Below are positions 46,601-64,000 of a stretch of 64,000 bases of DNA, piece by piece; positions within the stretch are counted from its first letter, which is position 1, and the number at the start of each line of letters is the position of its first letter. The notes under the pieces were generated by a model, which ran no database searches, was not told the DNA's origin, and worked only from the letters and a program-made list of their open reading frames with translations. The DNA is from Ectothiorhodospiraceae bacterium WFHF3C12. Lineage in GTDB: Bacteria > Pseudomonadota > Gammaproteobacteria > Nitrococcales > Nitrococcaceae. A program made the translations under genes and the position numbers. The stretch covers positions 1 to 64,000 of the forward strand of contig JACDUA010000014.1 of NCBI GenBank assembly GCA_013519935.1. Direction: 5' to 3'.

Positions 46601-46927
46601 GAGCGGCGCACGCCGGGTATCCCAGAGGAGTTGGCCAACAAGCCCCACGCCAAGGCTTACTTTGGTGTCTTTCGCTTGGTGATGGGCGATGAGGAGATCG
46701 ACACACGGATGGAGGAGGACGCCGGCGAATTGATCCAACTGGCGCTGACGATCGACGAGACCGTGGCCGACGTGGTGGCGGAGAACACACTGAATCCTGG
46801 TGGTATCGATGCCGGCATTCGTAAGATGCTGCTGCCGGATTTGTTCAAGCGCTTCGGTTTGGACAACGCCAACCGGATCCTGGACCAGATCGTCCACATC
46901 GTGAGAGTCGGGTTGAGACGTGAGTGA
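43637..46927 (+). CDS. hsdR: Type I restriction endonuclease subunit R
   Basis: The translocating nuclease subunit, 1096 residues. The N-terminal PD-(D/E)XK nuclease shows RRPDVVGFLNGIPVVVIEAKR. The SF2 motor follows with Walker A HTTGSGKSFTMVFLSKLL, the DEGHRS box, FTGTPLL and later motifs such as QAIARVNR. The C-terminal helical region probably contacts HsdM. The start is TTG 43637 with GGAG upstream, and MSEKVTPNTSELYASHIPAL is a normal beginning. The gene overlaps the metallopeptidase gene by 8 bp. Confidence 0.95.
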   Translation: MSEKVTPNTSELYASHIPALITLMKLGWEYRSPAKVMEQRGDSTREVLLRPVLIEFLRQHRFEYKGDTYPLSSEGIQQVLTTLATPGLAEGLMSANESVHDMLTLGITVNEFMPDGKRHAVTVPLVDWDDIERNSFLVTEEMEVQNASATGHRRPDVVGFLNGIPVVVIEAKRAASGNPNKSMIDESVSQMLRNQGVREIPYLFAFAQVLVAVSQTQGRYGTARTPRKFWSLWQEDQITEAERETIVNRPLSDDQVDALFTDRAPRVRKHFEQLWSKTVLPTEQDELLIGILSPARLLKLLRYYILFYKNEKIIARYQQFFGIEELLEKVSHVDAKSSRQGGVIWHTTGSGKSFTMVFLSKLLVLHESLKQCRVVVVTDRVDLEKQLSRTFAAAGALGLTSVSSGEAGNARVGSGRELAWQIGKGNQRVIFTLVQKFMSAIKYKECYNPSENLLVLVDEGHRSHGGENHQRMRKALPRAGYIAFTGTPLLKKDRQETVDTFGPIVHAYTMRRAVEDKTVAPLLYEERHPTLDVNQEAIDNWFETITQGLSDDQKADLKRKYAKRGAIYGAENRIRLIAWDIAIHFNEHFKKLGKSLKGQVACDSKLSAIRLKKFLDETELVTSRVVISPPDTREGHSEVDEAELPEVQQWWANNVQGDPYEYERQAIEHFGMEGDPDLLIVVDKLLTGFDEPLNAVLYIDKPLKGHNLIQAIARVNRLHEEKAYGLLIDYRGILAELDTAIKDYQNLEEHTQGGYDIDDIDGLYRSVSTEYKRLPELHENLWSFFQGVENTYDQQAFRQVLMPRYETDSEGVEYDARQKLREDFYEALTKFGVCLQVARSSHSFFEDNSFTEAMLNTYKRDLKFFTELRQIARQDAQETVDYSAYEKQIRKLVDRDVMGLKVKEGEGAYEVDRLGQDPEEWDDQKTRNEADTIRTRTRKTIEQDLQDDPYAQKVFSELLKKAIEEADALFDHPVKQYALFREFEEQVTERRTPGIPEELANKPHAKAYFGVFRLVMGDEEIDTRMEEDAGELIQLALTIDETVADVVAENTLNPGGIDAGIRKMLLPDLFKRFGLDNANRILDQIVHIVRVGLRRE

Positions 46928-47669
46928 TATCCAGCGGCCGCACGGCAAGACCTATGCGGTGCAATACGGCGAACGGCAGCTGGAGTTCTACTGGCGCGCA
47001 CGAGACGCGGACCGGCACAAGGCGAGAATTCACGTCTATCCGAATGGCTTAGTGGAAGTGGAGACGCCCCAGGAAACCACTCTGGCTGAGGCCAAGGAGG
47101 CGCTGCTCAAACGTGCCCGCTGGGTGACCCGGCACCTTAGCGACATCGAGGCGCGCCGGGCGGCAGTGCTGGAGCGCCAGTACGTCAGTGGCGAGACCGT
47201 CTTCTATCTGGGCCGCCGGTATACGTTGAAGGTCATTCCCTCAAGTGCCGAGCAACACGTGAAGATGCTTCGGGGGCAGGTGCGCGTTACCACGCGGGAC
47301 ACCGCGCCGGCGGTCGTCAAGGCAAGGCTCACCGGTTGGTATCGGGAGCGCGGGAGAGAGGTGTTTCTGCGGCGGCTACAGGCGGTGAGTGATCGTCTGT
47401 CATGGGTGGAAGGGTTGCCGTCCTGGTCGATCCGGGTGATGAAAACTCAATGGGGTAGCTGCTCACCATCCGGAGCGATCATTCTTAACCCGCATTTGGT
47501 CAAGACCCCGACCGGTTGCATTGATTACGTCATCCTCCACGAGCTCTGTCACCTCAAGGAACATAACCACAGCGCCGGTTTCTACCGGCTGCTCAAGCAG
47601 GCCATGCCGAACTGGGAAGACGTCAAGATGCGGTTGGATGGATTGTCCGAACTGTATTTGAATGAGTAG
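46920..47669 (+). CDS. YgjP/SprT-like zinc metallopeptidase (DUF45)
   Basis: A 249-residue protein of the YgjP/WLM (DUF45) group. The metal motif is HELCHLKEHNHSAGFYRLL, an HExxH followed by a downstream His, and WGSCSPSGAIILNPHLV is the family block just before it. No signal peptide is present. It overlaps the end of hsdR and is the last gene in the cluster; this family is often found next to type I restriction genes. Its role there is not known. Confidence 0.9.
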   Translation: MSDIQRPHGKTYAVQYGERQLEFYWRARDADRHKARIHVYPNGLVEVETPQETTLAEAKEALLKRARWVTRHLSDIEARRAAVLERQYVSGETVFYLGRRYTLKVIPSSAEQHVKMLRGQVRVTTRDTAPAVVKARLTGWYRERGREVFLRRLQAVSDRLSWVEGLPSWSIRVMKTQWGSCSPSGAIILNPHLVKTPTGCIDYVILHELCHLKEHNHSAGFYRLLKQAMPNWEDVKMRLDGLSELYLNE

Positions 47670-47901
47670 GGTTGTAACGGATGCAGGATCGCACCGCTAG
47701 ATCGTTCCGCGCTTTAGCGGCATCGCTGGACTGCACTTGCTGTAGTGTCGGCGAGTATATCAGGACATGCTGCGATCGCTGTCGAGCCCAATGAACTTAG
47801 TCGACGTCGCGCGTAGCCTATAACACGGTGAGGCGAAGAACCGTAGGGAATTCAGTCACCGTCTGGCGGAGAACACCGCTGCACCAACAATGAAACCTCC
47901 G

Positions 47902-48861
47902 TTACGATTCAAGCTGGGGTATGTTCGGATAATCAATTCCGCGCAAGTCGTAGTAATCCTTACCGGCACCGGTAGCCAAATTTGTCACTGTCGTGCGGTT
48001 GAACTGGGCGCTCACTCGTTCACCGACGTGAAGGCGCTGCACTTGTGAGAACATTGACTGCGGGAAAGTAGCGCGAATCACATTGCCTTGGTCGGAGTCT
48101 ATCTCTATTCGTCCATTGCGCCCTATCAGATGGACCACACCCTCGATCTGAACAATGTCTTGTGTTTGAGCTGAAATCTGATGCAGCCGCTCCGATAATG
48201 CAGCGATCGTCTTTGTGTCTCCCATCCACTCATACTTCGAGTCATTGGGGGCACGCCACGTGACCGAGGCCTCAAGCTGAGCCTTTTTTAGAGCGTCAAT
48301 CAAGTTCACCAATCTTTTAGTGCCACGGTCTCCTACAGCATGCACTTTTTCCATCAAGGCATCTTCACGTTGGAAGTCGGCGAGCAACGAAAAGGTAGTC
48401 TCCAATGTCTCTTCGAGAAGGCTGTGACCGAGCAGATCAGGATTCGTCTTGCCCGTGATGAATACGCGAGTCGAGCCAGCCGCCAGCCCACCGAACCGCA
48501 ATCCAAGCGCTTCTTTGAGTTCTTCCCGAAATGGCCCCCTAGCTTCTAACCCGCGCTCATGTCTGCTTGCGGCGGCGTATAAAAACCTCGCTATATGGGT
48601 GGCGAGGCCGCCCAGTAGATCCAGCGGCAAAGTTCCATGCTGGGCGTTCTCTCCGGAAAGCCGCAATTCCACTACTTCGACCCCGCGCTGAGCCTTCTCC
48701 TGCGCCAACTGTTGCTGAAGCTCGTCAACGTGCGCACGCATGGACGCAACGGCCAGTTCTTGTGCAAAGTCGTTAGGCGCTTGCTCGTGCTGGGACTCAA
48801 GAGCCTCAAGTTGCTCGGTAGCGCTTTCGAGTAGGCTCTCAGTGCGACCTATGTCAATCAT
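47902..48861 (-). CDS. Coiled-coil protein paired with a nucleotidyltransferase-like gene
   Basis: A 319-residue protein that I do not recognise. Residues 1-60 form a charged coiled coil (SLLESATEQLEALESQHEQA through DELQQQLAQEKAQRG). A mixed middle region follows (PLDLLGGLATHIARFLYAAA and GSTRVFITGKTNPDLLGHSL). The C-terminal part (residues 240-319) looks like a small beta-barrel (IEGVVHLIGRNGRIEIDSDQ). Its ATG is 2 bp from the upstream gene's stop, so the two are almost certainly co-expressed. Together they form a compact two-gene module within the defence cargo. Confidence 0.75.
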   Translation of the reverse strand: MIDIGRTESLLESATEQLEALESQHEQAPNDFAQELAVASMRAHVDELQQQLAQEKAQRGVEVVELRLSGENAQHGTLPLDLLGGLATHIARFLYAAASRHERGLEARGPFREELKEALGLRFGGLAAGSTRVFITGKTNPDLLGHSLLEETLETTFSLLADFQREDALMEKVHAVGDRGTKRLVNLIDALKKAQLEASVTWRAPNDSKYEWMGDTKTIAALSERLHQISAQTQDIVQIEGVVHLIGRNGRIEIDSDQGNVIRATFPQSMFSQVQRLHVGERVSAQFNRTTVTNLATGAGKDYYDLRGIDYPNIPQLES

Positions 48862-48863
48862 CT

Positions 48864-49319
48864 TTATAGCCCCACCTCGACGATGCCCTTGGGGCGGCCA
48901 TCTCTGTCATGTCCGAAGAGGTTCCGCCAATAGCGCTCCTGATCGGCGTCACCCTCCAGCATCAGATAGACATCGCAGCTGAACCTCTGTTTCACGGTTT
49001 GTCGCTCGGTACCAAAGATCTGGCGCAGCGCTTCCTTCTCCTGCTCACCAAGCGCGTTGAGGCAACGAGCTTCCGCTATTACGACTAGGTCAACATCGGC
49101 AGGTTCAGGCTTGTTTGATAGAAATGAGCCGTCTATCCAGACTCTGAACGGCCTGCCGATTAGTTGAGCTAGGTTCTCAAGGAAGACGTGCAGCCTAGAG
49201 TACAGGTACTCTCTGTGCTCTTTGCCGTCGTTGAACGCATCGACAAGCATTTCCTTCATATCGGGCACCGACATCGGGTGAATCCCAGCGTCCAACAATG
49301 GCTCGTAGTCAGCTGCCAC
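48864..49319 (-). CDS. Nucleotidyltransferase-like protein (DUF6932-like)
   Basis: A protein of about 151 residues. The block FRVWIDGSFLSNKPEPADVDLVV fits the minimal nucleotidyltransferase pattern GS-x(n)-D-x-D, and AGIHPMSVPDM upstream resembles the start of DUF6932 proteins. Such folds occur in MNT, AbiE and related antiphage or toxin-antitoxin proteins. The start is uncertain: GTG 49319 gives a family-like N-terminus and has AGG-rich sequence upstream, while longer and shorter starts exist (the frame opens at 49382). It precedes the coiled-coil gene with a 2-bp gap. Confidence 0.65.
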   Translation of the reverse strand: MAADYEPLLDAGIHPMSVPDMKEMLVDAFNDGKEHREYLYSRLHVFLENLAQLIGRPFRVWIDGSFLSNKPEPADVDLVVIAEARCLNALGEQEKEALRQIFGTERQTVKQRFSCDVYLMLEGDADQERYWRNLFGHDRDGRPKGIVEVGL

Positions 49320-49476
49320 AACCCTAATCCTATCCCCACCGAACCCCACTTGTACGATGCGCGAAAGCGCGCAAGAAGACAACCGAGCCTGCCGAACCTT
49401 ATTTTGGTCGAGAACGGCCCTCGGCGGTTAGCTGCGCCGAAGGCAGGTGATACTGATCACCCGACCGCCCGGCCTA

Positions 49477-49701
49477 CGTCCCTAGGCCACTGAGTTCCAT
49501 CAGCACCTCGCCCAGCTAGCGGTCGATGAAGGCGCGGGACCGCACCACGTCAGACTGAGGGGCAACGCAGGCCAAGCCACGGGAGCGAACTCGGTCATAG
49601 TCGTCGCGGACATGGCTGGCCACGGCTTCAACGTCCACCAGCCGGCCCTGGTTCCGTTCAAACAGGAGGTCGTGTTGGAACTGGTTTCGCGCAAGAGGCG
49701 T
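49477..49701 (-). pseudogene. Decayed phage terminase small-subunit-like fragment
   Basis: On the minus strand the frame reads LLFERNQGRLVDVEAVASHV then RDDYDRVRSRGLA. This resembles the C-terminal part of Nu1/terminase small subunits, where RLV-D-E-V and a later RVRSRLLA-P are typical. The frame has a stop at 49516-49518 and has neither a start codon nor an N-terminal domain. It is probably a relic of a prophage. The rest of 49383-49957 shows no gene. Confidence 0.35.
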
Positions 49702-49957
49702 TCACTCTCGGTTCACGTCCACGGTATTCTGGGGTCGAGGAATTCGGGATCGCGCCTAACCTTTCAACACACGCCAGCTTATTGAATGGCCGCTACTAGC
49801 CGGTCGCGGTCCGTCAAATCTCTGCGTCTCACAACGGAATGCGTCCCGGAGCTGGTTGACCCGCGATCGGCGCGCGCCGAGTAGAAGGCTCTCGCGTGAC
49901 CCGACATGCGATCCGACCTATCCTCACGGATGAGCACTAAAGAGACAGGAGCACGAC

Positions 49958-50590
49958 ATGCCGGAACTAGACGAGCATGGCCAGCCGCACCCTGCGATCA
50001 ATTACCGAAGGAACCTGACCAAGGCTACGGAGTCGCTGCTCGGTCTTTGTCGAGGCCTGCTCGCGGACCAGAGGCTATCAGCCGAAGAGATCGTCTTCTT
50101 GGACACATGGCTACGCGAGAACGAAATCGTAGAGCACCAGTGGCCAGGCAGCGTCATTGCCGAGCGCGTCAGGCAGGTAATGGCGGATGGAGTGGTTTCG
50201 ACGGAGGAATCCGAAGACCTCCAGCAAACGCTGGAGCAGATCCTTGGCGGCGGGTTTGACGAGGGTGTCGTATCTGGGAACGCTACGAGTCTGCCACTCG
50301 ACGATGCAGAGGCGGTTGAAGTCGACGGCAGCACCTTCTGTTTCACCGGCAAGTTCATTTTCGGGCCGCGGAGAAAGTGCGAGGATGCGGTTGTCTCGCT
50401 GGGCGGTGAGGTTGCGCCGCGGGTCACCAAGGCTATCGACTACCTCGTCATCGGCGCTTTGGCCAGCCGGGACTGGGCGCATACCAGTCACGGTCGCAAG
50501 ATCGAGGCAGCTTTGGATCACAAAGAGAAAGGCAGGGAGATCCTTATTATTGGTGAAGAGATGTGGGCCGATCACATCTCCAGGAAATAG
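49958..50590 (+). CDS. BRCT-domain protein
   Basis: A 210-residue protein. The C-terminal half is a BRCT domain of the DNA-ligase type: GSTFCFTGKFIFGPRRKCED, then VVSLGGEVAPRVTKAIDYLV and GRKIEAALDHKEKG. The N-terminal half (residues 20-100) is helical with acidic stretches (LRENEIVEHQWPG, MADGVVSTEESEDLQQTLEQ) and recalls TerB-like regions. It is not a ligase, as no nucleotidyltransferase domain is present. ATG 49958 has AGGAG upstream. BRCT-only proteins of this type occur in mobile islands; a role in binding damaged or phage DNA ends is conjecture. Confidence 0.85.
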   Translation: MPELDEHGQPHPAINYRRNLTKATESLLGLCRGLLADQRLSAEEIVFLDTWLRENEIVEHQWPGSVIAERVRQVMADGVVSTEESEDLQQTLEQILGGGFDEGVVSGNATSLPLDDAEAVEVDGSTFCFTGKFIFGPRRKCEDAVVSLGGEVAPRVTKAIDYLVIGALASRDWAHTSHGRKIEAALDHKEKGREILIIGEEMWADHISRK

Positions 50591-50682
50591 ATAGGAGCGG
50601 TCTGGCCTCCACGCGTCCGGCGGTAGGAGGCCAGGGTCCAACTGATCGGCTGCTACCGTGCCTATCGTACGCGCAGTGCAGC

Positions 50683-51000
50683 CTAATTGACGCGTAGGTC
50701 ATCGAGTGACTTCCCTGCCTCCTCCCACTCGCGGAGCCACGCCGGCTTGCGCCCTTTTCCGCTCCACGTCTTCTTCGGGTCGGTGGGGTGGCGGAACTTC
50801 ACGGTAGCTTTAGACTTCCCCGAGGCGGTCGTCTTGCCACCGACGATTTCCTCGAGCGTCAGACCGTACTTGGCCGCCACTTCTTTCATCTCGCTCTGAG
50901 CCCGCTTGGCGTCCTCCTTTCGGCGGGACTTGATCTCCTTGTCGATGTCCTTCTTCAGCTGGTGAAGCTGCGGCACGGTGTACTTCGTCAGATCGGTCAA
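50683..51000 (-). CDS. H-NS family nucleoid-associated protein
   Basis: A 105-residue DNA-binding protein of the H-NS/MvaT-like histone family. The N-terminal coiled-coil oligomerisation part is PQLHQLKKDIDKEIKSRRKE. The C-terminal domain has the AT-hook-like loop in TWSGKGRKPAWLREWEEAG. It starts at TTG 51000 with AGGAG 8 nt upstream. Such genes are frequent on islands, where they silence AT-rich cargo, so it may repress this island's genes. Confidence 0.92.
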   Translation of the reverse strand: MTDLTKYTVPQLHQLKKDIDKEIKSRRKEDAKRAQSEMKEVAAKYGLTLEEIVGGKTTASGKSKATVKFRHPTDPKKTWSGKGRKPAWLREWEEAGKSLDDLRVN

Positions 51001-51336
51001 TGTGGGTACTCCTACGTTTGCCTAGCGACAAGTTGCCACAACTTTGTACCGCGTTAAATAAGAGCCAACCACCGCACTATTCTTGATTGAGAAGACCACG
51101 CATTTAGTGGCATGAACTCGAGAGATGCTGTCTCACGTGTTTAGGCTCTTCATTGCTGGCGAAAATGATTGAGAACGGCGATGAGGTGCTCCTAGGGGTG
51201 CCTAGAGCATTGGCCACTTATTGTTAATCCAATCGCTGCCGGACTAAGCTTCCGGGGGATCATCAGAGCTGTTGCAGTCGCGCACCGGCAAAGACCATTG
51301 TGGTCGCATAAGAATCTGCACTATCGCGGGGGTGGC
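51001..51336. other. Divergent intergenic region between the H-NS gene and the giant helicase gene
   Basis: This stretch of 336 bp has no gene that I can support and is visibly richer in A and T than the flanking genes. It must hold the promoters of the H-NS-like gene (minus) and the nuclease-helicase operon (plus). I could not pick a convincing -35/-10 pair. Confidence 0.4.
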
Positions 51337-54300
51337 ATGGATTCCGATCAAGAGGGCGAAGCGCTCGGACTCGAGGTGACGCTAGCCGAGCGAGTCAACT
51401 TCGCTTGTCAGCAAAACGATGTACCCCTCCTGCGGGATCTGGTTCTCCAGAACCGGGGCGGGGATCAGCTCAATGGACTCACTCTGGAGATCTCATCGGA
51501 CCCTGCCTTTTTGAAGGCACGAACCTGGCACGTTGATCGCCTGGGCGCCGGGGACACGCTTCATATTGATGACCGGCGTGTCTCTCTTGACCCGGGTGTT
51601 CTCTGGCAGCTGTCGGAGGCAATCACCGCAACAGTCCATATCCGGGTTACTGACGGCGATACGGTGCTCCAGAGCGTTGACCAGTCGGTGGAATTGCTGG
51701 CGCGCAACGAATGGGGCGGTGCCAGTTACATGCCTGAAATGATCGCGGCGTTCGTCACACCGAACGACCCGGCGATTGACCGGCTCCTCAAGGACGCATC
51801 GCAGGCACTCGGGAAGGCGGGCCTGAACACTTCGCTCGACGGGTACCAAACGGAAAGCCCCCAGCGCGCGGCACATATCGTCGCCGCGATCTGGTCCAGT
51901 GTTTGCGGAGTTGGGTTGAGCTACGCGACCCCGCCGGCCAGCTTCGAGCGCAGCGGGCAGAAGGTCCGCACACCCTCGCACATCGTCGAGGGTGGGTTGG
52001 CGACCTGCCTCGACCTCACACTGCTCTTCGCGAGCTGCCTTGAGCAGGCCGGCTTGCACCCGATTATCGTGTTCACGCGCGGACACAGCTTCGTCGGCTG
52101 CTGGTTGCAGGACGAGCAGTTTTCCTCCGTTACCGTTGACGACGTTACCAGCCTTCGAAAGCGGATCCAGCTAAAGGAGGCGCTCTTCTTCGAGACCACG
52201 TTTGTCACACAGGAGCCGAGGCCGAAGTTCAAGTTTGCGATGAAGCATGCTGGCGAGGCGCTCGCCGAGGAGAACGACGAACAATTCGAGCTCGCGATCG
52301 ATGTCCATCGTGCCCGCATGCAGCGCATCCGCCCGATTCCCACAGGGCGCGAGCCGGAGCCCAAAGCGAGCGAGCCGGTGGCTGATGCAGCTTCAGAGCC
52401 GGCGGTCGAGTTAGAGGGACTGGACCAGATCCCGAGCGACGCGACGACGGTTGAACAGGAGGTCGCGGAGTCGCCGAAGAGCCGCCTGGATCGCTGGCAA
52501 CGAAAGCTTCTGGACCTGTCTCTGCGGAACCGACTGCTCAACTTCAAGCCATCGAAACGCGCCATCGCAATTCAATGTCCCGATCCGGGCCAGCTGGAGG
52601 ACCGTCTAGCCGACGGTATGAAGATCCAGGTCATGCCTTCGCCGCGGATGATGGACGAGGAGAGCGGGCGCTCGGCCGACCTTTACCGTCGCCAGCATGG
52701 CGAGGATGCGGACGAGGGCTACGCGCTTGATGCGCTACGCCGCAACGAGGTCATCGTCGATTTGCCGCCCGACGAGCTGGATAGACGGCTGGTCGAGTTG
52801 TATCGAGCCGCACGCGCTGCGCTCCAGGAAGGCGGCGCCAATACACTCTTCCTCGCCTTTGGCTTCCTGGTTTGGACGAAGGGTGACGGAAAATCGGATA
52901 GGCGTTATCGCGCACCGCTGATCCTGGTGCCCGTGCAGCTTGAGCGCCGCAGCGTGCGCTCGGGCATGAAGCTTGTCCTCCACGATGACGAGGCGCGGGT
53001 CAACCCCACTCTTCTGCAGATGCTCGAGCAGGATTTCGCCCTGCGCGTCCCAGAGTTATTGGGGCCGATCCCGACCGATGAACACGGTCTCGATGTCCAA
53101 GGCATCTGGAACGCCATGACCCGCGCGATTCGGGACCAGGAAGGCTGGGAAGTGACCGAGGACGTAGTCCTGTCAACGTTTTCCTTCTCCAAGTACCTCA
53201 TGTGGAAAGACCTGGTTGACCGCACCGATGTTCTCAAGGATAACGCGGTCGTTCGGCACCTCATCGATACTCCGAAGGAGGTCTATCGCTCGGAAGTCAC
53301 CTTCCCGGATCCGCGGCGATTGGACTACGACTATCCGCCGGAGCAGACCTTCACACCATTGCCCGCGGACTCCTCTCAGTTGTCTGCGGTTATGGCGGCG
53401 GCCGCGGGCAAGGACTTTGTTCTGGAGGGGCCGCCAGGTACGGGCAAGTCGCAGACGATCTCCAACATGATCGCCCAATGCCTAGCGGAAGGGCGGACCG
53501 TGTTGTTCGTCTCGGAAAAGACGGCCGCCCTCGATGTGGTGTATCGCCGGCTCCGCGATGTCGGTCTTGGCGAGTTCTGCCTGGAACTCCACTCGAGCAA
53601 AGCACGCAAGCTTGACGTCCTTGAACAACTTCGATCCGCTTGGGACTCGCAGGCGGATCTTGACGCCGAGCAGTGGGAGCGCGAGGCGAAACGGTTGGCG
53701 TCGCTGCGCCAGGAGCTGAATGCTTTCGTCACTCATCTCCACCACCGCTATCCGAACGCACTAACGCCGCACTACGCGATCGGTAAGGTGATCGGTGGCC
53801 GTGATGTGCCGCGGGTCAATGTTGGCTGGAACTCGCCGGAGACGCATGACGCGGATGCGTTGCAGGAGCTGCGTGATATTGCCGAGCGTATCGACATCAA
53901 TAGCGCGGAGCTTGGTAGCGTCGCGGAGAGCGCCTTCACCGGCGTTGCTGAACCTGATTGGTCACCGAGTTGGCAGCACGATCTGATTGATGCCGCGAAG
54001 CGGGCTATGCCAGTCCTCCGGACGTTTGCCGACCACGCACGAGCTCTTGAAGAGTCCTGTGGTCTGCCTTCCGCGCCTTTGACACGGGACCGCCTCAGGA
54101 GCCTCTCCTCATTGGCCAAGGTATTGCCTTGGGCCTACGGCCGGAACTATGCCTTCGCCCTCGAGCCTCAGGGGCCTCAAACGATTTCCGAACTCAAGCA
54201 AGGTCTGGAGCTGCTTGAGCAGCGTCGTAGCACGCTGGCCCAACTGTCGGTTGAGTACAGGCCGGATGCGTTGTCCGACCTGCCGATAGGGGAGCTGAAC

Positions 54301-57300
54301 GAACTCTGGGCGGAGGCAGAATCGACCTGGTGGCCACGCAAGGCAATCCTTAGGCGCCGAGTCCGCAAGACGCTCCGGAACGCGGTCCACGCCCGAAGGA
54401 AACCGAATGCGGACGTTGACCTTCCCCAGCTCAGTGAGATCAGGAGGCTCGACTCCGAGCTCGACAAGTATGACTACTTGAAAGCCGGGACGGCTGGTCT
54501 CTGGGATGGACTCGGTACCGACGCAGAAAAGGTGAGAGCCGCAGTGGATATCACCGGGCGCATCCGGGCGGCAATCGGCTCACTGGCTCAAGCTCCGGAT
54601 ACGCTCATCGACACCCAGGCCGCAGTCCGCCGTTTGCTAAGCGACGGCAATGCTTTGCTCTCCGAGGAAGCTACTGTGGGCCGGGCTGCCAAGTCGTATC
54701 GCGAATCCGACCAAGCTTTGAACGAACGGCTCGAGACGCTTACTGCGCTTACTCGCAATCCCGCCGAACACCTTCTCGCCGGAGATGTTCAGGACTGGCC
54801 CGAAGCGTTGGAGAAAAAGCTTGGTCGTTGGATTCAGGAAGAAAACCGACTGCGCACATGGTGCGCTTGGCGGCGAGTACGTGACGAGGCAATGGGACGC
54901 GGTCTCTCTCCCCTGGTCGAAGCTGTCGAGAACGGCAGTATTGAAACGGGACGAGTGCGGGAGGCATTCGAGGTCAACTATTGCCGATGGTGGATCGACG
55001 CCGTCGTCGATGGTGATGAGGTATTACGGGGCTTCGTGCCCGCAGAGCACGAGCGTCGAATCGCGGAGTTCGCACGGCTCGACGATGAGTTCACGAAGCT
55101 TACGCGCTCCTATATCCGGGCGAAGCTCTGCGGTTTTCTCCCAGCGAAGGACGAAGTGAAGCGCAGCTCCGAATGGGGAGTGCTCAAGCGTGAACTGGAA
55201 AAGAAGCGTCGCCACAAACCCCTTCGTCAGTTGGTTGAGGAAATGCCAACGGCGCTGACGAAGCTCACGCCTTGTTTGCTGATGAGTCCCCTATCGATAG
55301 CGCAGTATCTGTCACCGGAGCAGGCCCAGTTTGACGTGGTCATATTCGATGAGGCCTCTCAGATCCCCGTATGGGACGCAGTCGGTGCGATCGCTCGTGG
55401 GCGCCAGGCGGTGATCGTAGGCGATCCCAAGCAGCTACCGCCTACCAGCTTCTTCGAGCGGACTGAGGACGAAGATTACGAAGATGAGGATGTCGAGCGC
55501 GACCTGGAGAGCATCCTCGATGAATGCATGGGCGCCAACGTCCCGTTGGAGCGCCTGAACTGGCATTACCGCAGCCGTCACGAGAGTCTCATCGCGTTCT
55601 CCAATCAGCGCTATTACGGGGGCGGTCTGGTCACCTTCCCAGCGCCCGTAACCGAAGACCGGGCAGTCAGCTATCACCATGTCCCTGATGGCGAGTATCA
55701 GAAAGGTGGGGCCCGCACGAACCCCGAGGAAGCGAAAGCACTCGTCGCGGACATTATCGGCCGCATCAAGGACCCGGAGTTCGCAAATGCCGGCTTGTCC
55801 ATCGGTGTTGTAACGTTCAACACCGAGCAGCAACGCTTGATTGAGGACCTATTCGACTCCGAGCGCCGCAACGACCCGAGCATCGAGCCCTGGTTCGACG
55901 ACGATGCGCTCGAGCCGATCATGGTGAAGAACCTTGAGAGCGTTCAGGGTGACGAACGCGACATCATCTACTTCTCGGTCACCTACGGTCCGGATCAGCA
56001 CGGGCGGGTTTCAATGAACTTCGGTCCGCTGAACCGCGATGGTGGCGAGCGCCGCCTCAACGTCGCCATCACCCGTGCTCGTCATGCGCTGCGAGTATTC
56101 GCGGCGCTGAAGGCGGAGCAGATCAACCTGGCCCGCACCCAGGCTGTCGGCGTCCGGGACTTCAAGCACTTTCTGGAGTTCGCGGAGCGCGGCCCACGTG
56201 CTCTCGCAGAAGCCACTTATGCTGGAACGGCGGATTTCGACTCGCCTTTCGAACAGGCCGTGGCGTCTGCCCTGACTGAGCGGGGTTGGCAGATACACCC
56301 ACAGGTGGGCGTGTCGGGCTTTCGCGTCGATCTCGGTGTCGTGCACCCGGACGCGCCTGGCGTCTACCTAGCCGGCGTTGAATGTGACGGGGCGACCTAC
56401 CACCGGGCAGCCACCGCCCGAGATCGGGACAAGCTCCGCGAAGGCGTGCTCAGAGGGCTCGGCTGGGAGATCCTTCGGGTTTGGTCGACGGATTGGTGGG
56501 TGGACTCACCTGGTGCAATGGACAAGCTGGACGGTCGACTCAATGAACTGCTAGAGGCCTCTCGGGCAGCACGCGCAGCAAGCCAGGATTCGACGCAAGC
56601 GGTTCGTGCTGCGCAAGATGAAGTTGCCGACATCGACGATGGTGGCGCCGGATCCGCTCAAGTGATCGCGCCGCCTGCGTCAGCGCCTGCGAACGACAGC
56701 CCTTCAGTCGACATGGAGGAGACGCAAGTCGCAGAGAGATACGCAAGGGCACCGGCGGCACATGAAGGTGAATCTCTCTCGACTGCGCGGGGAGAGGCTG
56801 GGGACAGCAAGGTCACGACCTACCGGCAGTGTGCACTTGGAACCTACCTGGGAATCATCGATCCCGACCAGTTCTACGAGTCCTCCTATACACCGGTATT
56901 GTCGAAGCTTGTGGCGGTAGTCGTTGCCGAGGAGGGGCCGATCAGAGATGAGTTGCTCGTGCGCCGAATTGCCCGGGCCCACGGATTCCAGCGTGCGGGG
57001 CAACGAATCAGGAAACGAGTGCTCTCTATCGCTCGTCAAAAGGCCGTTACAACGGAAGAGGATGTTGGCACCTTTTACTGGCCAGAGGGGCTTTCTGAGC
57101 CGTGGCGCTGGTTTCGTGCGCCAGACGTAGGCGACGCGCGGTCCGTGGAAGACATCCCGATGGAGGAGCTTGTCGTGCTGTCGAGCCATCTCAGTCAGCA
57201 GGGTCATTCGGGTGAGAATCTCCTGCGAGAAATGGCGGCTGCGTGCGGAGTGAAGCGCGTGAGCAAGGCGATACGTGAACGCCTTGCGGATGCTACGGGG

Positions 57301-57318
57301 CAAAGCGCTTCGCCATGA
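51337..57318 (+). CDS. Giant DUF4011-helicase-Vsr-like nuclease-DUF3320 protein
   Basis: A 1993-residue protein. The N-terminal third includes a transglutaminase-like patch (GGLATCLDLTLLFASCLEQA, with RGHSFVGCW). DUF4011 follows near residue 385 (RLDRWQRKLLDLSLRNRLLNF). The SF1 helicase has Walker A GPPGTGKSQTISNMIA near 700, Walker B FDEASQIP near 1337 with GDPKQLPPTSFF, and motif VI RRLNVAITRARHALRV near 1575. A Vsr/DUF559-like nuclease lies near 1635-1720 (DSPFEQAVASALTERGWQ, FRVDLGVV, VECDG), then a DUF3320-like domain near 1825-1890. Multi-domain proteins of this design occur in antiphage islands. ATG 51337 follows GGGGGTGG. It overlaps the next gene by 4 bp. Confidence 0.88.
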   Translation: MDSDQEGEALGLEVTLAERVNFACQQNDVPLLRDLVLQNRGGDQLNGLTLEISSDPAFLKARTWHVDRLGAGDTLHIDDRRVSLDPGVLWQLSEAITATVHIRVTDGDTVLQSVDQSVELLARNEWGGASYMPEMIAAFVTPNDPAIDRLLKDASQALGKAGLNTSLDGYQTESPQRAAHIVAAIWSSVCGVGLSYATPPASFERSGQKVRTPSHIVEGGLATCLDLTLLFASCLEQAGLHPIIVFTRGHSFVGCWLQDEQFSSVTVDDVTSLRKRIQLKEALFFETTFVTQEPRPKFKFAMKHAGEALAEENDEQFELAIDVHRARMQRIRPIPTGREPEPKASEPVADAASEPAVELEGLDQIPSDATTVEQEVAESPKSRLDRWQRKLLDLSLRNRLLNFKPSKRAIAIQCPDPGQLEDRLADGMKIQVMPSPRMMDEESGRSADLYRRQHGEDADEGYALDALRRNEVIVDLPPDELDRRLVELYRAARAALQEGGANTLFLAFGFLVWTKGDGKSDRRYRAPLILVPVQLERRSVRSGMKLVLHDDEARVNPTLLQMLEQDFALRVPELLGPIPTDEHGLDVQGIWNAMTRAIRDQEGWEVTEDVVLSTFSFSKYLMWKDLVDRTDVLKDNAVVRHLIDTPKEVYRSEVTFPDPRRLDYDYPPEQTFTPLPADSSQLSAVMAAAAGKDFVLEGPPGTGKSQTISNMIAQCLAEGRTVLFVSEKTAALDVVYRRLRDVGLGEFCLELHSSKARKLDVLEQLRSAWDSQADLDAEQWEREAKRLASLRQELNAFVTHLHHRYPNALTPHYAIGKVIGGRDVPRVNVGWNSPETHDADALQELRDIAERIDINSAELGSVAESAFTGVAEPDWSPSWQHDLIDAAKRAMPVLRTFADHARALEESCGLPSAPLTRDRLRSLSSLAKVLPWAYGRNYAFALEPQGPQTISELKQGLELLEQRRSTLAQLSVEYRPDALSDLPIGELNELWAEAESTWWPRKAILRRRVRKTLRNAVHARRKPNADVDLPQLSEIRRLDSELDKYDYLKAGTAGLWDGLGTDAEKVRAAVDITGRIRAAIGSLAQAPDTLIDTQAAVRRLLSDGNALLSEEATVGRAAKSYRESDQALNERLETLTALTRNPAEHLLAGDVQDWPEALEKKLGRWIQEENRLRTWCAWRRVRDEAMGRGLSPLVEAVENGSIETGRVREAFEVNYCRWWIDAVVDGDEVLRGFVPAEHERRIAEFARLDDEFTKLTRSYIRAKLCGFLPAKDEVKRSSEWGVLKRELEKKRRHKPLRQLVEEMPTALTKLTPCLLMSPLSIAQYLSPEQAQFDVVIFDEASQIPVWDAVGAIARGRQAVIVGDPKQLPPTSFFERTEDEDYEDEDVERDLESILDECMGANVPLERLNWHYRSRHESLIAFSNQRYYGGGLVTFPAPVTEDRAVSYHHVPDGEYQKGGARTNPEEAKALVADIIGRIKDPEFANAGLSIGVVTFNTEQQRLIEDLFDSERRNDPSIEPWFDDDALEPIMVKNLESVQGDERDIIYFSVTYGPDQHGRVSMNFGPLNRDGGERRLNVAITRARHALRVFAALKAEQINLARTQAVGVRDFKHFLEFAERGPRALAEATYAGTADFDSPFEQAVASALTERGWQIHPQVGVSGFRVDLGVVHPDAPGVYLAGVECDGATYHRAATARDRDKLREGVLRGLGWEILRVWSTDWWVDSPGAMDKLDGRLNELLEASRAARAASQDSTQAVRAAQDEVADIDDGGAGSAQVIAPPASAPANDSPSVDMEETQVAERYARAPAAHEGESLSTARGEAGDSKVTTYRQCALGTYLGIIDPDQFYESSYTPVLSKLVAVVVAEEGPIRDELLVRRIARAHGFQRAGQRIRKRVLSIARQKAVTTEEDVGTFYWPEGLSEPWRWFRAPDVGDARSVEDIPMEELVVLSSHLSQQGHSGENLLREMAAACGVKRVSKAIRERLADATGQSASP

Positions 57319-60300
57319 ACCCGTCCGGTGAAGTCATAGCCCTGAGTGCATCTGATCTCGTTGGCCACCTCAACTGTGGTCACCTGACGGCCCTCGATTT
57401 TCAGGCCGCAAGAGGCCTATTGTCCCCGCCCGCTCATTGGGATCCCGTGCTTGAGATCTTGCGCGAGCGCGGCCGACGGCATGAGGAAGCCTTTGTAGAG
57501 CACCTGCGTGACGCTGGCATTTCTGTCTCGAAAATCGATGGCGTTGACGTGACCGCTGATGCCGTTGCGCAAACGCGTGACGCTATGGCGCAGTGCCACG
57601 ATGTCATCTGTCAGGCAGCGCTCCAGGACGGGCGCTGGTTGGGAAGGGCAGACGTCCTGCGTCGGGTCGAAGTACCGAGCGACCTCGGGGACTGGTCCTA
57701 CGAAATCATTGATACCAAGCTCGCTCGCGAGACCAAGGCGGGCACGGTGCTCCAGCTCTGTCTGTATGCGGATTTGCTGGAGCATATACAGGGGCGAGTA
57801 CCCGACTACGTCTATGTCGTCGCGCCATGGTCAGACTACGAACCCCAGGCATTCCGGGTCGCGGACTATAGCGCTTACTACCGGCGCGCGAAGCGCGCTA
57901 CGGAGATCGCGACCGACGGACCCGAAATCCCCGACGTCTATCCGGACCCGAAAGAGCATTGCGACGTCTGCCGCTGGCGTGAGCGCTGTGAGCAACGCCG
58001 ACGGGATGACGATCACCTTTGCCTGGTGGCGGGAATCACCAAGAACCAGATCAATGAGCTTCAAGCGAACGGCATAAACACCCGCACTGAGCTCGCTGCG
58101 ATGCCGTTACCAATGCCATGGAAGCCGCAGCGGGGCTCGCCGATCTCTTATGAAAAGGCCCGCGAGCAAGCGCGCATCCAGGTCGAGTCCGACAAGGCCA
58201 GAGAGCTTCGCTTTGAACTGTTGTTGCCCGTTCAACCAGAAGCCGGTCTTGGGCTCCTGCCGGAGCCGTCGGACGGTGACATCTTCTTTGACATCGAAGG
58301 TGACCCCTTTGTCGGTGAGCACGGCTTGGAGTACCTGTTCGGCTACCAGTACGACGGAGAGGACGGCTCGCCCAAGTACGTTGCGGATTGGGCGCTGGAC
58401 CGCGAGAGCGAGAAGGCCATCTTCGAGCGCTTCATCGATTTCGTGACAGAACGCCGCGAGCGTTATCCGGACCTGCACATCTATCACTTCGCGCCCTACG
58501 AACCGGGAGCCTTGAAGCGACTGATGGGCCGCTACGCCTCACGGGAGCGGGAGATTGATGACCTGCTCCGCGGGAAGGTCTTCGTCGACCTTTACAGCGT
58601 CGTGCGGAATGGGCTGCGCGCGGGTGTCGAGAGCTATTCAATCAAGAAGCTGGAGCCACTCTACGGCTTCCACCGGGAAACGGAGTTGACCGAGGCGAAC
58701 AAGGCGCTTGCGAGCGTCCAGGCGGGCCTGGAACTTGCCGATGGGGCGTCGATCGGTGATGAGGAGCGCGCCGTCGTTCAGCGCTACAACGCCGATGACT
58801 GTGCTTCGACGGCGGGCCTTCGTGACTGGCTTGAGGCACGCCGAAGCGAACTTATCGAATCCGGGACGGCCGTGCCGCGGCCCGAGCCGGGGCACGAAGC
58901 GAGTGAGGAGCTAACGGAGCGCGAGGCGCAGGTCCAGGCATTGATCGACCGTCTTACTGCGGATATTCCGGTCGACGTCGAAGAGCGGACCGCGGAGCAA
59001 CAGGCACGGTGGATTCTCGCCTACCTACTGGAGTGGCACCGGCGCGAGGAAAAGGCCACCTGGTGGGAGCACTTCCGGCTCGCCGGCCTGACCACGGATG
59101 AGCTCGTGGATGAGCGAGCGGCGCTGGCGCATCTCACCTTGCTCGAAACCGTCGACCAGACGAAGACCGGCATCCCCACACACCGCTATCGCTTCGAGGC
59201 CCAGGACACGGACCTACGTGGAGAGGAGAAGCTTAGGGCCGTGGGTGGGGAAGCAATTGGCCAAGCGGTTCGCGTATCCATAGATGACCGCACCATCGAC
59301 ATCAAGAAACAGAAGGCAACGGCGGACACCCATCCGGAAGCCGTGTACGCGCACACGGTGTTCAACAGCAAAGAGCAAGCGGGCGCGTTGTTCCGAATCG
59401 GGGAGTACGTAGCGGAGCACGGCATTGAGGGAGAGGGCCCTTATCGCGCTGCCCGCGCCCTGCTGCTCAGGGAGCCACCACCACTTGGTGGCCAGCCGAT
59501 CCGCGAGCCCGATGAGGTGGCGCTCGATGCCGCCTTGCGTGCCGCCGGTGTGCTCGAAGGCGGGGTTTATCCGATTCAGGGTCCGCCTGGTACGGGGAAG
59601 TCCTTTACGGGCGCAAGAATGATCTGCCGACTGGTCGAGCAGGGCAAGAAAGTCGGCATCACGGCAAACAGCCACAAGGTGATCCGGAACCTGATCGAGA
59701 AGGTTCTGGAAGCGTCGGACGAGATGGGTCTGGCGGTCCAGTGCACCCACAAGATCAGCGAGAAGGAGCCAGACCAGGATCGAATAATCCTGACGAAGGA
59801 CAACAAGGAGCTGTTCGGCGCGCTCAACGAGGGTCAATGCCAGGTCGCCGGCGGAACCAGCTTTCTCTGGTCGCGAGCCGAGGCCGAGGAAACACTCGAT
59901 GTTCTAGTCGTAGACGAGGCGGCACAGATGTCACTGGCGAATGTCGTGGCGGTTTCGCAGGCCGCACGGACGCTGATCCTGCTCGGGGATCCCCAGCAAC
60001 TGGACCAGCCGATGCAGGGAACACACCCCGACGGCACAGGCGTCTCCTGCCTGGAGCACATCCTCGGCGAGTACCATACGATCTCTAAGGATCGAGGCTT
60101 GTTCCTTGAGCGGACCTTCCGGCTGCACCCCGAAATCTGCGAGTTCGACTCCGAACTCTTCTACGATCACAAGCTAGTTGCCCAAGAGGGATGCGAACAG
60201 CAAGTCATCAGGGCGAGCGGGCCTCTCAGTGGCAGCGGTCTGCGCTATCTCCCCGTGGCCCATGAGGGGAACAAGAGCTCATCGATCGAAGAGGCTTCCG

Positions 60301-60722
60301 CCGTCGAGCGGGCCGTTCACGCGATCCTGGAGGGCGATCCCCACTGGACAGACCGCGATGGCGCGGAGCGATCGCTGACGCTCGACGACATTGTTATCAT
60401 CACCCCCTACAACGCCCAGGTCTTCGAGATACAGCAACGCCTGCCGGGTGCGCGCGTAGGCACCGTCGACAAGTTCCAGGGGCAGGAGGCTCCGGTCGCG
60501 ATCTATTCCATGGCAACTTCAAGTCACGCCGATGCGCCGCGCGGGATGGAGTTCCTATATAGCGCGAACCGCTTCAACGTCGCGATATCTCGGGCGAAGT
60601 GCCTGGCTGTCCTCGTGGCCTCACCCCAGGTGTTCGAGGCGGATTGCAGGACGCCGCGGCAGATCCAGTTGGCCAATGCCTTCTGCCGCTTTCTCGAGGT
60701 GTCCGAAGAGATTGCGGCTTAA
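57315..60722 (+). CDS. TM0106-type nuclease-helicase (RecB/Cas4-like, DEDD-like and SF1 helicase domains)
   Basis: A 1135-residue fusion. The N-terminus is a TM0106/RecB-like nuclease with GRADVLRR and EIIDTKLA as likely acidic and lysine residues. A Cas4-like cysteine set (Cys21, then CDVCRWRERC near 216-226) suggests an Fe-S cluster. Residues about 320-500 look like a DnaQ-like/RNase H_2 exonuclease: FFDIEGDPF, IYHFAPYEPGALKRL and YNADDCAST. The C-terminus is a Dna2/Upf1-type SF1 helicase with GPPGTGKSFTGARM near 756, VVDEAAQMS near 868, and RFNVAISRAKCLAVL near 1085. The start overlaps the preceding stop (ATGA), so the two proteins are translationally coupled. Confidence 0.88.
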   Translation: MNPSGEVIALSASDLVGHLNCGHLTALDFQAARGLLSPPAHWDPVLEILRERGRRHEEAFVEHLRDAGISVSKIDGVDVTADAVAQTRDAMAQCHDVICQAALQDGRWLGRADVLRRVEVPSDLGDWSYEIIDTKLARETKAGTVLQLCLYADLLEHIQGRVPDYVYVVAPWSDYEPQAFRVADYSAYYRRAKRATEIATDGPEIPDVYPDPKEHCDVCRWRERCEQRRRDDDHLCLVAGITKNQINELQANGINTRTELAAMPLPMPWKPQRGSPISYEKAREQARIQVESDKARELRFELLLPVQPEAGLGLLPEPSDGDIFFDIEGDPFVGEHGLEYLFGYQYDGEDGSPKYVADWALDRESEKAIFERFIDFVTERRERYPDLHIYHFAPYEPGALKRLMGRYASREREIDDLLRGKVFVDLYSVVRNGLRAGVESYSIKKLEPLYGFHRETELTEANKALASVQAGLELADGASIGDEERAVVQRYNADDCASTAGLRDWLEARRSELIESGTAVPRPEPGHEASEELTEREAQVQALIDRLTADIPVDVEERTAEQQARWILAYLLEWHRREEKATWWEHFRLAGLTTDELVDERAALAHLTLLETVDQTKTGIPTHRYRFEAQDTDLRGEEKLRAVGGEAIGQAVRVSIDDRTIDIKKQKATADTHPEAVYAHTVFNSKEQAGALFRIGEYVAEHGIEGEGPYRAARALLLREPPPLGGQPIREPDEVALDAALRAAGVLEGGVYPIQGPPGTGKSFTGARMICRLVEQGKKVGITANSHKVIRNLIEKVLEASDEMGLAVQCTHKISEKEPDQDRIILTKDNKELFGALNEGQCQVAGGTSFLWSRAEAEETLDVLVVDEAAQMSLANVVAVSQAARTLILLGDPQQLDQPMQGTHPDGTGVSCLEHILGEYHTISKDRGLFLERTFRLHPEICEFDSELFYDHKLVAQEGCEQQVIRASGPLSGSGLRYLPVAHEGNKSSSIEEASAVERAVHAILEGDPHWTDRDGAERSLTLDDIVIITPYNAQVFEIQQRLPGARVGTVDKFQGQEAPVAIYSMATSSHADAPRGMEFLYSANRFNVAISRAKCLAVLVASPQVFEADCRTPRQIQLANAFCRFLEVSEEIAA

Positions 60723-60765
60723 CGGGTCAGCGAGTTCAAGACCCTTGCCGAGACCGCAGCCACAC

Positions 60766-61065
60766 TCAGTCTCGCTCAATGGCCACACCCGCGAAGCCCC
60801 GCCATTCCCGTTCGACCGCCAAACACGCGCGATCCTTATTCGCGATGGCGCCGGCCGCACGACGCGTTGCGCCGACAACTTGGCCGAGTTTGGTGCTCGC
60901 TCTACTACCAAGCTCTCGCCTGATGCGGTTCGCGGCACCTTCGAGCTGCATTATCGGCCACTTCGCGTCTCTCTGCGTTGGCGCTGCGAGGACGTTATCA
61001 ATGAGCCGCCGCAATTCAGCCGCCTCTTGCTTCGACAGCTTCGGGGTGGTGTCCGAGACGTCCAT
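60766..61065 (-). CDS. Small hypothetical protein converging on the nuclease-helicase operon
   Basis: A possible 99-residue protein from ATG 61065. The sequence LSKQEAAELRRLIDNVLAAP followed by MQLEGAANRIRRELGSRAST is helical and of normal composition. No clear ribosome site is seen and no family is recognised. It lies tail-to-tail with the nuclease-helicase gene. Confidence 0.35.
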   Translation of the reverse strand: MDVSDTTPKLSKQEAAELRRLIDNVLAAPTQRDAKWPIMQLEGAANRIRRELGSRASTKLGQVVGATRRAAGAIANKDRACLAVEREWRGFAGVAIERD

Positions 61066-61995
61066 TGGGCCAGTGTAGGCGCACGCGCGGCAGGGATGCA
61101 CGGGTCGCTTAGCCACCCCCGGCTGTTGGCTCGGCCAGGCTAAAAGTTCGTGGGCTATTGCCGAAGTGAGCGCAACGATAGCCCTCAAGAGGCAGAGTGC
61201 GCAGTGGGACCATAAATCAATAAAATCCGTGTGTTGCGAGTCATCACCGGCTCAATCGGGATATTTAGACTCACAGAATGCCGCGCACGTCAATAGCTCA
61301 TCTTGACAAAGAGGCATTCGCTCACTATCATATGTGATTGTCGTCACGCAACAGGTTCGACGCAACGTATGACCAGTACCGTTTCCAGGCCGATGGGTCA
61401 CCGGCAAGTTGCCCGGAGTGGCCCGAGCCCTCGAACCACGCCAGCCGCAACCCAATCGGGTTCTATGAAGCGGCGAGAGATACCCGTCTAGCGGAAGCCC
61501 CGCCTCTTCTGTAACACCTAACACCGGTGCCCGATAGGGCAGCCGACGGAACCGTACGGCCAAATGCCCGGTTAAGGGTCCACGAAAGCCGTGGCCTCAA
61601 CAGGAGAGTTGCGTCCTTCGAGTTCGAAAGCTTGCCGTTTGTCGGCCCGCTAGTCTCATCAGGATCGATTCTCCGTGCAGCACGAAAGGACCCGGAGGGG
61701 TGAAGAGAAAGACAGAATTTATTTACGGATAAATGGCTCGTGTGGAGGTGGTCTTCCAGTAATACAACGCGTTTCAACAGGTTCGCTTCGGGCTAAATAA
61801 TTAATCAGAAATATAAGGCGGTAAGAAAGCAAGTACGAGCTACCGCTGGTAAGCAATTAATTTTAGTTAAAACAATTTGTTACGTACTCCGTGAGTGTCA
61901 CTTTTGACACTTGCAGCAGGGCGCTCTGTGTTCTACAAAAGCGTTCTGTTCTCAAGCGATTTTGCTACTTAAATCAGGCTCGAAAGAGGTGGGTG
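61066..61995. other. Gene-poor, AT-rich stretch with a palindrome before the tnsA region
   Basis: No convincing gene is seen in about 930 bp. From about 61690 to 61980 the sequence becomes markedly rich in A and T. An inverted repeat AGTGTCA-CTTT-TGACACT lies at 61894-61911. It could be an operator or part of a Tn7-like right end, since transposon ends of this class start TGT, but neither was proved. Confidence 0.4.
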
Positions 61996-62739
61996 ATGCG
62001 AAGAAAGGGGAGCGATCGAAAGGCAAAGCATAGCGCGTCGGATCGTGCGCTACAAACTGCCCATGCGAAAGACTTGGTAGGACGCTTCGCTACACAGGGC
62101 CAGGACGACACAGTACCCGACGCCTGTTCGTTCCACCCTGCCGCCACGGCGTATCAGGCTAGGCGATGCTCGGGACTGGACGGTTCTTTACCTACTTCAA
62201 CTCAGGTGAGCGGAAAGCCCCCTGGTGCCGGCAGGGGGCAAGCGCGCGGCACTAAGGACGGGCTGAACCGGCATAGCAGGGAAGCCGCAGATCATCAGGG
62301 CGACAGTGGATCGCTCGAGCGGCTGCTCCGCGCGATGGACGACGCCGCAGAAGAAGATGAAAAATTGCGGCTGCGTCGCAGCCTCTTACCTGCTGCCCCC
62401 GAGGCGACTCAATGCCCGCCCGAGTGGTCGGCAACCATCGTGCCCACACGCTTGGCTCTCGGCCCGCCGTCTTGGTACGCATTCTATGTAATAGAGCATG
62501 GCACACGCGCCGCCGTGGCCGTCCAAGTCGACGTGCTGCCCGCCGTAGACCGCCTCATCGTCGCGCTTGAAAGCCTCAGTCGATCGAGAGGTGCGCCGCG
62601 TTATCTCGAGTTGGATGACGGATGCCCCATGGCTATCGATCCGCTCTCGGACTGGTGCGCCCGCGTCGGGATTCGTCTGAATATCCCACTCCCGGGCCAG
62701 GGTGTCGGTAAGGGTGGTTTCGAAGGCGGCAGCCGATGA
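61996..62739 (+). CDS. Uncharacterised protein with a degenerate IS3-integrase-like C-terminus
   Basis: A 247-residue open frame from ATG 61996, preceded by AGAGGTGG. The N-terminal 120 residues are polar and unfamiliar. The C-terminal part (ALESLSRSRGAPRYLELDDG, then WCARVGIRLNIPLPGQGVGK) resembles the core of IS3-type OrfB around the second catalytic Asp, but the first catalytic Asp region reads VIEHGTR and the third acidic block is missing. The stop overlaps the next tnsA-like start by ATGA. It may be a fused relic or a domesticated protein; the transposase similarity was seen by eye only. Confidence 0.45.
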   Translation: MRRKGSDRKAKHSASDRALQTAHAKDLVGRFATQGQDDTVPDACSFHPAATAYQARRCSGLDGSLPTSTQVSGKPPGAGRGQARGTKDGLNRHSREAADHQGDSGSLERLLRAMDDAAEEDEKLRLRRSLLPAAPEATQCPPEWSATIVPTRLALGPPSWYAFYVIEHGTRAAVAVQVDVLPAVDRLIVALESLSRSRGAPRYLELDDGCPMAIDPLSDWCARVGIRLNIPLPGQGVGKGGFEGGSR

Positions 62740-62940
62740 AGAGGCGAAGGGGCATCACACCCGCGCTTCGTGATCGCTGGATTGCTCAGTGGAAGCGCGC
62801 GCTCACAGAAGGCCGTTACCGGCCATTCCTGCGGACGGAAGACATCCCGTCATCCGGCAATCGTGTCCGGATTCGCGGAGTCACCGCGGGCCGGACACAT
62901 CACGTGATGTCATTCAATGTAGCCGCGGCCCTGGAGGAGC
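62736..62940 (+). pseudogene. Truncated tnsA paralogue (N-terminal fragment)
   Basis: The frame begins MKRRRGITPALRDRWIAQW and continues EGRYRPFLRTEDIPSSGNRV to GRTHHVMS. About half of these residues match the start of the intact tnsA at 63183, and GRTHH-(M/L)S is the TnsA signature. Similarity stops near 62920-62940, before the catalytic residues, where it runs into an IS3-like frame. It is a paralogue and not a recent copy, so it implies a second Tn7-like element. Confidence 0.7.
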
Positions 62941-63186
62941 CCTTCATTCGTAGAGCGGCTCAACGGCAGCGACCGCCAATGCGTGCTCGACGCCTGGATG
63001 TTCATCGACTTCACGCATGTCCGCGAAGAGTCTGAGCGTTGGCTAGCCGTATACAACACCATGCGTCCCCACGACTCGCTCGGTGACATCTCACCAATCG
63101 AGTTCCTCAATGGCCGCGGTCACGCCGGAGTCTCTGCTTATGAGTGGGTCCAAACCGGGAAGTGGACAGGAGCCCTGAGCGAATGA
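62940..63186 (+). pseudogene. C-terminal fragment of an IS3-family OrfB transposase
   Basis: The plus-strand frame reads SFVERLNGSDRQCVLDAW, then REESERWLAVYNTMRPHDSL and GDISPIEFLNGRG. This is the last catalytic-Glu block and C-terminus of IS3-family OrfB (consensus F-E-x-FN, YN-x-x-RPH-x-SLG). No upstream part of the transposase precedes it in frame. Its stop overlaps the intact tnsA start as ATGA. Confidence 0.75.
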
Positions 63187-63989
63187 AGAAAGGTCAACCC
63201 ATCTCGCCTGATCTGAGAGATCGCCATATCGCCGACTGGCGCGAGCGACGCGACGCTGGTCGGTACCAACCTTTCATCCGGACGGAGCGTGCGCCATCAG
63301 GGGGCAACCGAGCTCGCGTGCCAGGTATCAAATCCGGGGGAAGGGAGCACCATACCCTTTCGCACAACGAGTACCTACTGTTCTGTCTACTGGAACACGA
63401 CGAGATAGTCCGGGCCATCTGGGAACAGTACCCGTTGCTCGAGGTGGACGAGACCGTTGCGATCGCCTGCGAACTGGGTATTCGCCATCCGCGATACCCG
63501 GGAACACGAACTGATGTGTGTATGACAACGGACTTCCTGGTTGACCTAACCGACGGGGGCCAACGGGCCTACGCAGTGAAGTCGGCCCATGCACTCGAAA
63601 ATGACCGTACTAAGCAGAAGCTTTCTATTGAGGAGGAGTACTGGCGCCGCAGGGGGGTGCCGTGGCAAGCGCTCACCGACGTCGAGTTGAGAATCGAGCG
63701 CTCAGAGAATATCGCCTTCCTCCACAGTTTTGGGCGCCTGAACCTCAAGCTGGCGGCGCATTCGTTGGATTGGTTCGAGGCCTTCAAGGCCGAATCCAAT
63801 AAGACGAAAGATGCGCAACTGGCGGACGTCGTCGAGGCTACGGCAGTAGACCTCGGGCTGACCTATCACGAGTCAGTCCAGATCTACTACTACCTCCAAT
63901 GGGTTGGTCGGATCTCGCTGCAGACAAGGCCCTATGAACTCGACCTGGTGGTACTGGAAAGCGGGCTCACCTTCCATGATCAGTGTTAA
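63183..63989 (+). CDS. tnsA: Tn7-like transposition endonuclease TnsA
   Basis: The 5'-strand-cutting endonuclease of a Tn7-like heteromeric transposase, which works with TnsB. The N-terminal nuclease domain has the opening ISPDLRDRHIADW, GGREHHTLSHNEYLLF and EQYPLLEVDETVAIACELG. The restriction-like catalytic set fits an upstream Glu, the Asp in CMTTDFLVDL and the Lys in AYAVKSA. The C-terminal domain is winged-helix-like (LAAHSLDWFEAFKAESNKTK to YYYLQWVGRISLQTRPYEL). Length is 268 residues, close to Tn7 TnsA (273). It reads in the same direction as glmS but lies 24 kb away; tnsB, tnsC and tnsD would follow beyond the window. Confidence 0.9.
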   Translation: MKKGQPISPDLRDRHIADWRERRDAGRYQPFIRTERAPSGGNRARVPGIKSGGREHHTLSHNEYLLFCLLEHDEIVRAIWEQYPLLEVDETVAIACELGIRHPRYPGTRTDVCMTTDFLVDLTDGGQRAYAVKSAHALENDRTKQKLSIEEEYWRRRGVPWQALTDVELRIERSENIAFLHSFGRLNLKLAAHSLDWFEAFKAESNKTKDAQLADVVEATAVDLGLTYHESVQIYYYLQWVGRISLQTRPYELDLVVLESGLTFHDQC

Positions 63990-64000
63990 CAGTGTTCTTG

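Follow-up and report, generated by a model that had tools for sequence, protein, structure and literature searches.

A ProA-family gene and an overlapping TM0106 nuclease-helicase gene in a low-GC island of an Ectothiorhodospiraceae bacterium

Within a 64,000-nt stretch of contig JACDUA010000014.1 from Ectothiorhodospiraceae bacterium WFHF3C12 (positions 1 to 64,000, hereafter the window), two giant nuclease-helicase genes overlap by 4 bp (ATGA) on the + strand, and our verdict is that they amount not to a new two-component system but to a member of a known antiphage family with a neighbour that is exchangeable. Judged from its sequence, gene 1 is a member of the already named antiphage family ProA and is not new; gene 2 is a common defence-island nuclease-helicase of the TM0106 family with interchangeable partners. 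The explanation we favour, and regard as probable, is that gene 1 is a single-gene ProA system and gene 2 an end-processing TM0106 helper acquired by the island. The candidate two-component system is thereby struck off and its parts are named, and the repeated presence of TM0106 genes next to defence systems of very different kinds, McrBC in two gene orders among them, becomes a lead for a shared accessory function that goes unnamed in all the defence libraries searched.

Architecture of the two genes

Both open reading frames (Table 1) are so long, with full-length family matches, that a chance model was unneeded, and their coordinates, lengths and ATGA overlap are as originally predicted. 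The domain list proposed for the two genes was confirmed by Pfam and NCBIfam, and the pair does contain the expected three nuclease domains and two motors. An upstream alternative start for gene 1 is possible at TTG 51298; the ATG at 51337 has GGGGGTGG ahead of it.

Table 1. Features of the window (positions in the 64,000-nt stretch)
Feature	Position	Strand	Evidence or remark
glmS	37298-39226		left flank of island
Low-GC island downstream of glmS: pair, type I R-M system, tnsA	39227..64000	.	GC shift, gene content
Type I R-M system	HsdM 40872, HsdS 42376, HsdR 43637
Small BRCT-containing protein, possible associated gene	49958..50590	+	weak PF00533
ProA-family giant protein (gene 1), 1993 aa	51337..57318	+	NCBIfam NF058533.1, PADLOC PDC-S37
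Ig-like beta-sandwich, ProA residues 5-123	51349..51705	+	AlphaFold2 model; VIA-align
Transglutaminase-like domain, ProA residues 127-331	51715..52329	+	alignment; VIA-align; PMC3710099 architecture
DUF4011, residues 390-563	52504..53025	+	PF13195 1.8e-51
Split SF1 helicase core of ProA, Walker A GPPGTGKS to AAA_12	53377..56103	+	PF13245, PF13086, PF13087
MTES_1575 Vsr-type PD-(D/E)XK nuclease, residues 1638-1733	56248..56535	+	PF18741 6.5e-34
DUF3320, residues 1844-1893	56866..57015	+	PF11784 2.1e-19
TM0106-family nuclease-helicase (gene 2), 1135 aa	57315..60722	+	TIGR03491 268 bits (cut-off 97); PF13482, PF13087, PF12705
Cas4/RecB-like PD-(D/E)XK region, residues 118-226, with C216, C219, C225; C21 further upstream	57666..57992	+	PF12705
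DEDD (RNase_H_2) exonuclease domain, residues 323-506	58281..58832	+	PF13482 2.5e-18
UPF1-like SF1 helicase domain (AAA_11/AAA_12)	59547..60623	+	PF13086/PF13087; SMUBP-2 and UPF1 chains
tnsA	63144-63989

Gene 1 scores 2370.6 bits against the curated NCBIfam equivalog NF058533.1, 'anti-phage protein ProA' (cut-off 1500, exceeded by 871), its residues 21-1974 matching all 1903 profile positions (1-1903) through the N-terminal module, DUF4011, the SF1 helicase, the MTES_1575 nuclease and DUF3320. PADLOC's PDC-S37, listed as a defence candidate, covers its C-terminal 1600 residues at 1291 bits. Together with the island context, these matches support the antiphage role that had been proposed for the gene. 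Hhe, a DUF4011 anti-phage protein with a related helicase-nuclease half, is by score a more distant relative than ProA: gene 1 reaches 880.8 bits in NCBIfam, far below its ProA score and short of the Hhe cut-off of 2000. A literature search on ProA, DUF4011 and TM0106 in defence found no paper describing ProA. That ProA belongs to the DefenseFinder system Prometheus is a guess on our part. Prometheus is named in passages of PMC12629846, PMC12447246 and other papers that give no gene content.

The architecture agrees largely with the giant MTES_1575-type proteins described in 2013, which combine an SF1 helicase, a transglutaminase-like peptidase, a Vsr nuclease (MTES_1575) and a winged helix (the wHTH of DUF3320), and which also carry HEPN (PMC3710099). 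Gene 1 shares the transglutaminase-like domain, helicase, MTES_1575 REase and DUF3320, but has no Pfam HEPN match, and a divergent HEPN can escape Pfam. The two N-terminal domains (residues 5-331), a beta-sandwich and a transglutaminase-like domain, did not feature in the original prediction. An AlphaFold2 model of the region has a pLDDT of 92.6; in VIA-align, residues 5-123 aligned with many beta-sandwich domains (Z about 9-10, 100-108 residues) and residues 127-331 with yeast PNGase 3esw_A, a transglutaminase-fold enzyme (Z 9.2, rmsd 4.0, 158 residues aligned), and C224, D226 and H250 of this second domain are invariant in an alignment of 24 homologues. This confident model supports the transglutaminase-like domain. 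Beta-sandwich domains dominate the VIA-align list for the N-terminal model; Foldseek gave weak matches only, mainly to transglutaminase 2 and to complement and glycosidase beta-sandwich domains, and the ProA N-terminus had no meaningful match by sequence in the PDB. Further along, the helicase core is UPF1/SMUBP2-like by sequence, and the nuclease retains catalytic E, D, ECD and H residues that are invariant in 21 homologues. A model of this nuclease domain resembles the homing endonuclease I-Bth0305I, whose structures 3r3p and 3hrl were the top small-domain Foldseek matches (TMt about 0.7, with weak E-values of 0.01-0.02).

Gene 2 matches TIGR03491, the TM0106 family of RecB-like nucleases, over residues 11-506 and well above the cut-off (Table 1), with Cas4-like cysteines and a DEDD domain; to this family description the gene and its 57-70% identical relatives add a C-terminal UPF1-like SF1 helicase. 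Across five homologues the cysteines C21, C216, C219 and C225, the nuclease residues, the DEDD residues (D326, E328, D425, D494/D495) and the Walker residues are invariant. Because such motif residues are conserved in homologues, both genes, with catalytic and cysteine motifs intact, look functional.

TM0106 genes among defence systems

A scan of genome contigs returned 578 relatives of gene 2, and 99 TM0106 loci were examined for their company. McrC occurs in ten of these, in the order TM0106-McrB-McrC at L058 and L060 and McrB-McrC-TM0106 at L053, L108, L109 and L133, with TM0106 and McrBC convergent at L065; that TM0106 stands before McrB or after McrC, depending on the genome, suggests repeated independent association. 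Other neighbours include BREX PglX/PglZ (L052), HmaA (L057) and DISARM DrmD (L063). A narrow panel of defence proteins was positive in 14 of 81 independent TM0106 loci and in none of 20 control regions, a small control set at arbitrary round positions in genomes of the same sample; loci L052-L065 had supplied the panel, making the census partly circular there, and only the 81 independent loci were counted.

Under the favoured explanation, ProA, as an MTES_1575-type giant SF1 helicase, would recognise or load on foreign DNA, translocate along it by means of its SF1 motor and use its Vsr-type nuclease for cutting, while the transglutaminase-like module at the N-terminus would be a regulatory or protease-like part. 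The TM0106 protein would then unwind and degrade the resulting ends with its UPF1-like helicase, Cas4-like nuclease and DEDD 3'-5' exonuclease, and in other genomes it may have the same end-degrading role beside McrBC, BREX, DISARM, Hma and type I systems. More tentatively, the two proteins could form one cut-and-degrade machine in the source lineage, with TM0106 a general plug-in end-processing module repeatedly recruited by unrelated defence systems (ProA, McrBC, BREX, Hma, DISARM); we hold this to be possible, with the balance tilting against it.

Gene 2 might instead be an independent neighbour that works for the island's type I restriction-modification system or in general DNA repair, with only a transcript in common with ProA. 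Relatives of gene 2 do lie near type I genes (L100, L127) and beside many other systems, and genome G193, at a locus where TM0106 is absent, has a ProA gene beside an HsdM that shares 89% identity with the one in the window. Overlapping genes are usually co-translated, however, and the restriction-modification genes of the window are more than 9 kb from gene 2 with other genes intervening, and we consider such independence rather unlikely.

Pairing of ProA with TM0106

The original prediction took the two genes for a fixed pair, which should show as conserved co-occurrence across genomes. Among 398 genomes of the phylum, ProA is found in 52 (32 of them over the cut-off) and the TM0106 helicase in 17; the two sets share four genomes, and the genes are adjacent solely in the source genome (1 of 52 ProA, 1 of 17 TM0106). 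A search of 54 genomes of the same order gave a similar picture for the nearest relatives: G435, of the same family, carries the ProA closest to gene 1 (69% identity across 1992 aa) with no TM0106 match and with a convergent, unrelated gene downstream, and G406 carries a TM0106 protein 70% identical to gene 2 with no ProA match. Gene 1 differs in this respect from the other ProA members examined, being trailed by an overlapping TM0106 gene that is absent from all 22 fetched neighbourhoods of its homologues. From the other side, none of the 99 TM0106 loci had an abutting DUF4011 gene or a ProA gene in a shared operon. Plasmids carry both families (85 records match ProA and 11 match TM0106), and no accession is shared between the 40 listed of the 85 ProA records and all 11 TM0106 records. 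The claim of a fixed pairing thus falls away and, with no conserved co-occurrence, the distinct two-component system built upon it is left unsupported. With ProA normally standing alone and TM0106 found in widely varied company, the pair does not give the impression of a new system with fixed members.

An obligate two-component system in the source lineage, in which ProA cuts, end processing falls to the TM0106 protein and both are required for defence, is in our view improbable. In its favour are the 4-bp ATGA overlap, the common strand and the similar third-position GC of the genes (0.70 in gene 1, 0.74 in gene 2), together with the presence of a DUF4011-type protein within the fetched 10-kb flanks of 6 of the 99 TM0106 loci, which is far more than the frequency of ProA would roughly predict. 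Yet most of these six proteins are of a different, kinase-DUF4011 type (L106, L115, L124, L055) and none overlaps TM0106; the remainder are a full ProA about 3 kb from TM0106 on the other strand (L132) and a partial match (L120). Neither nearest relative has the partner, and the phylum sample holds no second adjacent case. Few genomes in the ProA sample are close to the source genome, so a small clade with a fixed pair could be missed. The overlap suggests that both genes are jointly expressed here and may reflect real cooperation in the source lineage, which we count against the favoured explanation of a single-gene ProA system with an acquired helper.

That both proteins serve DNA repair, with no part in defence, is very improbable: the TM0106 helicase does resemble UPF1/DNA2-type enzymes, but NCBIfam curates ProA as anti-phage, and both families are patchy across the phylum, carried by plasmids and found in defence islands.

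The DUF4011/helicase proteins near TM0106 at L106 (2136-8528), L115 (1104-7367) and L124 (1091-7360) belong to a family related to the kinase-DUF4011 protein of L055 (12453-15965), about 2100 aa long if complete and mostly from rhizobial genomes.

The island around the pair

The pair lies in an island that begins behind glmS, where GC falls from 0.62-0.70 to 0.55-0.62, and that also carries a YgjP metallopeptidase gene and an H-NS-like gene. To the right, tnsC (TniB/AAA) and tniQ (TniQ) genes sit just past the window and form a tnsA/tnsC/tniQ operon with the tnsA of Table 1; neither Pfam nor NCBIfam gave a match for the open reading frame in the place of tnsB, which is a tnsB candidate by position alone. 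The glmS gene is the usual site of Tn7-like elements, and the glmS-flanking stretch with its tns-type genes looks like such an element, for which no matching far end was found. An 18-nt repeat (TTGGAATGAGTTTGAGAC) occurs in four copies behind glmS (39259-39478). Related copies, partly inverted, lie at two intergenic sites of the source genome (G000 C111:34752 and C139:19402) without tns genes, and the reading of these repeats as transposase-binding ends was downgraded on account of this recurrence.

Several island genes recur elsewhere. The small BRCT-containing protein encoded near ProA in the window has its BRCT-like part at the C-terminus, and a homologue (70% over 96 aa and 57% over 114 aa) is the immediate neighbour of ProA in G435 (L180 12999-13620), in a different relative orientation. 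The G193 locus with the closely similar HsdM (L080 1805-3337 and 5793-11612) has only a few kb between that gene and its ProA, which is just 46% identical to gene 1. Finally, the YgjP-like gene lies directly behind hsdR in the window (46920-47669), and a YgjP-like gene takes the same place in two unrelated type I loci (L100 22484-23197, L127 17244-17951).
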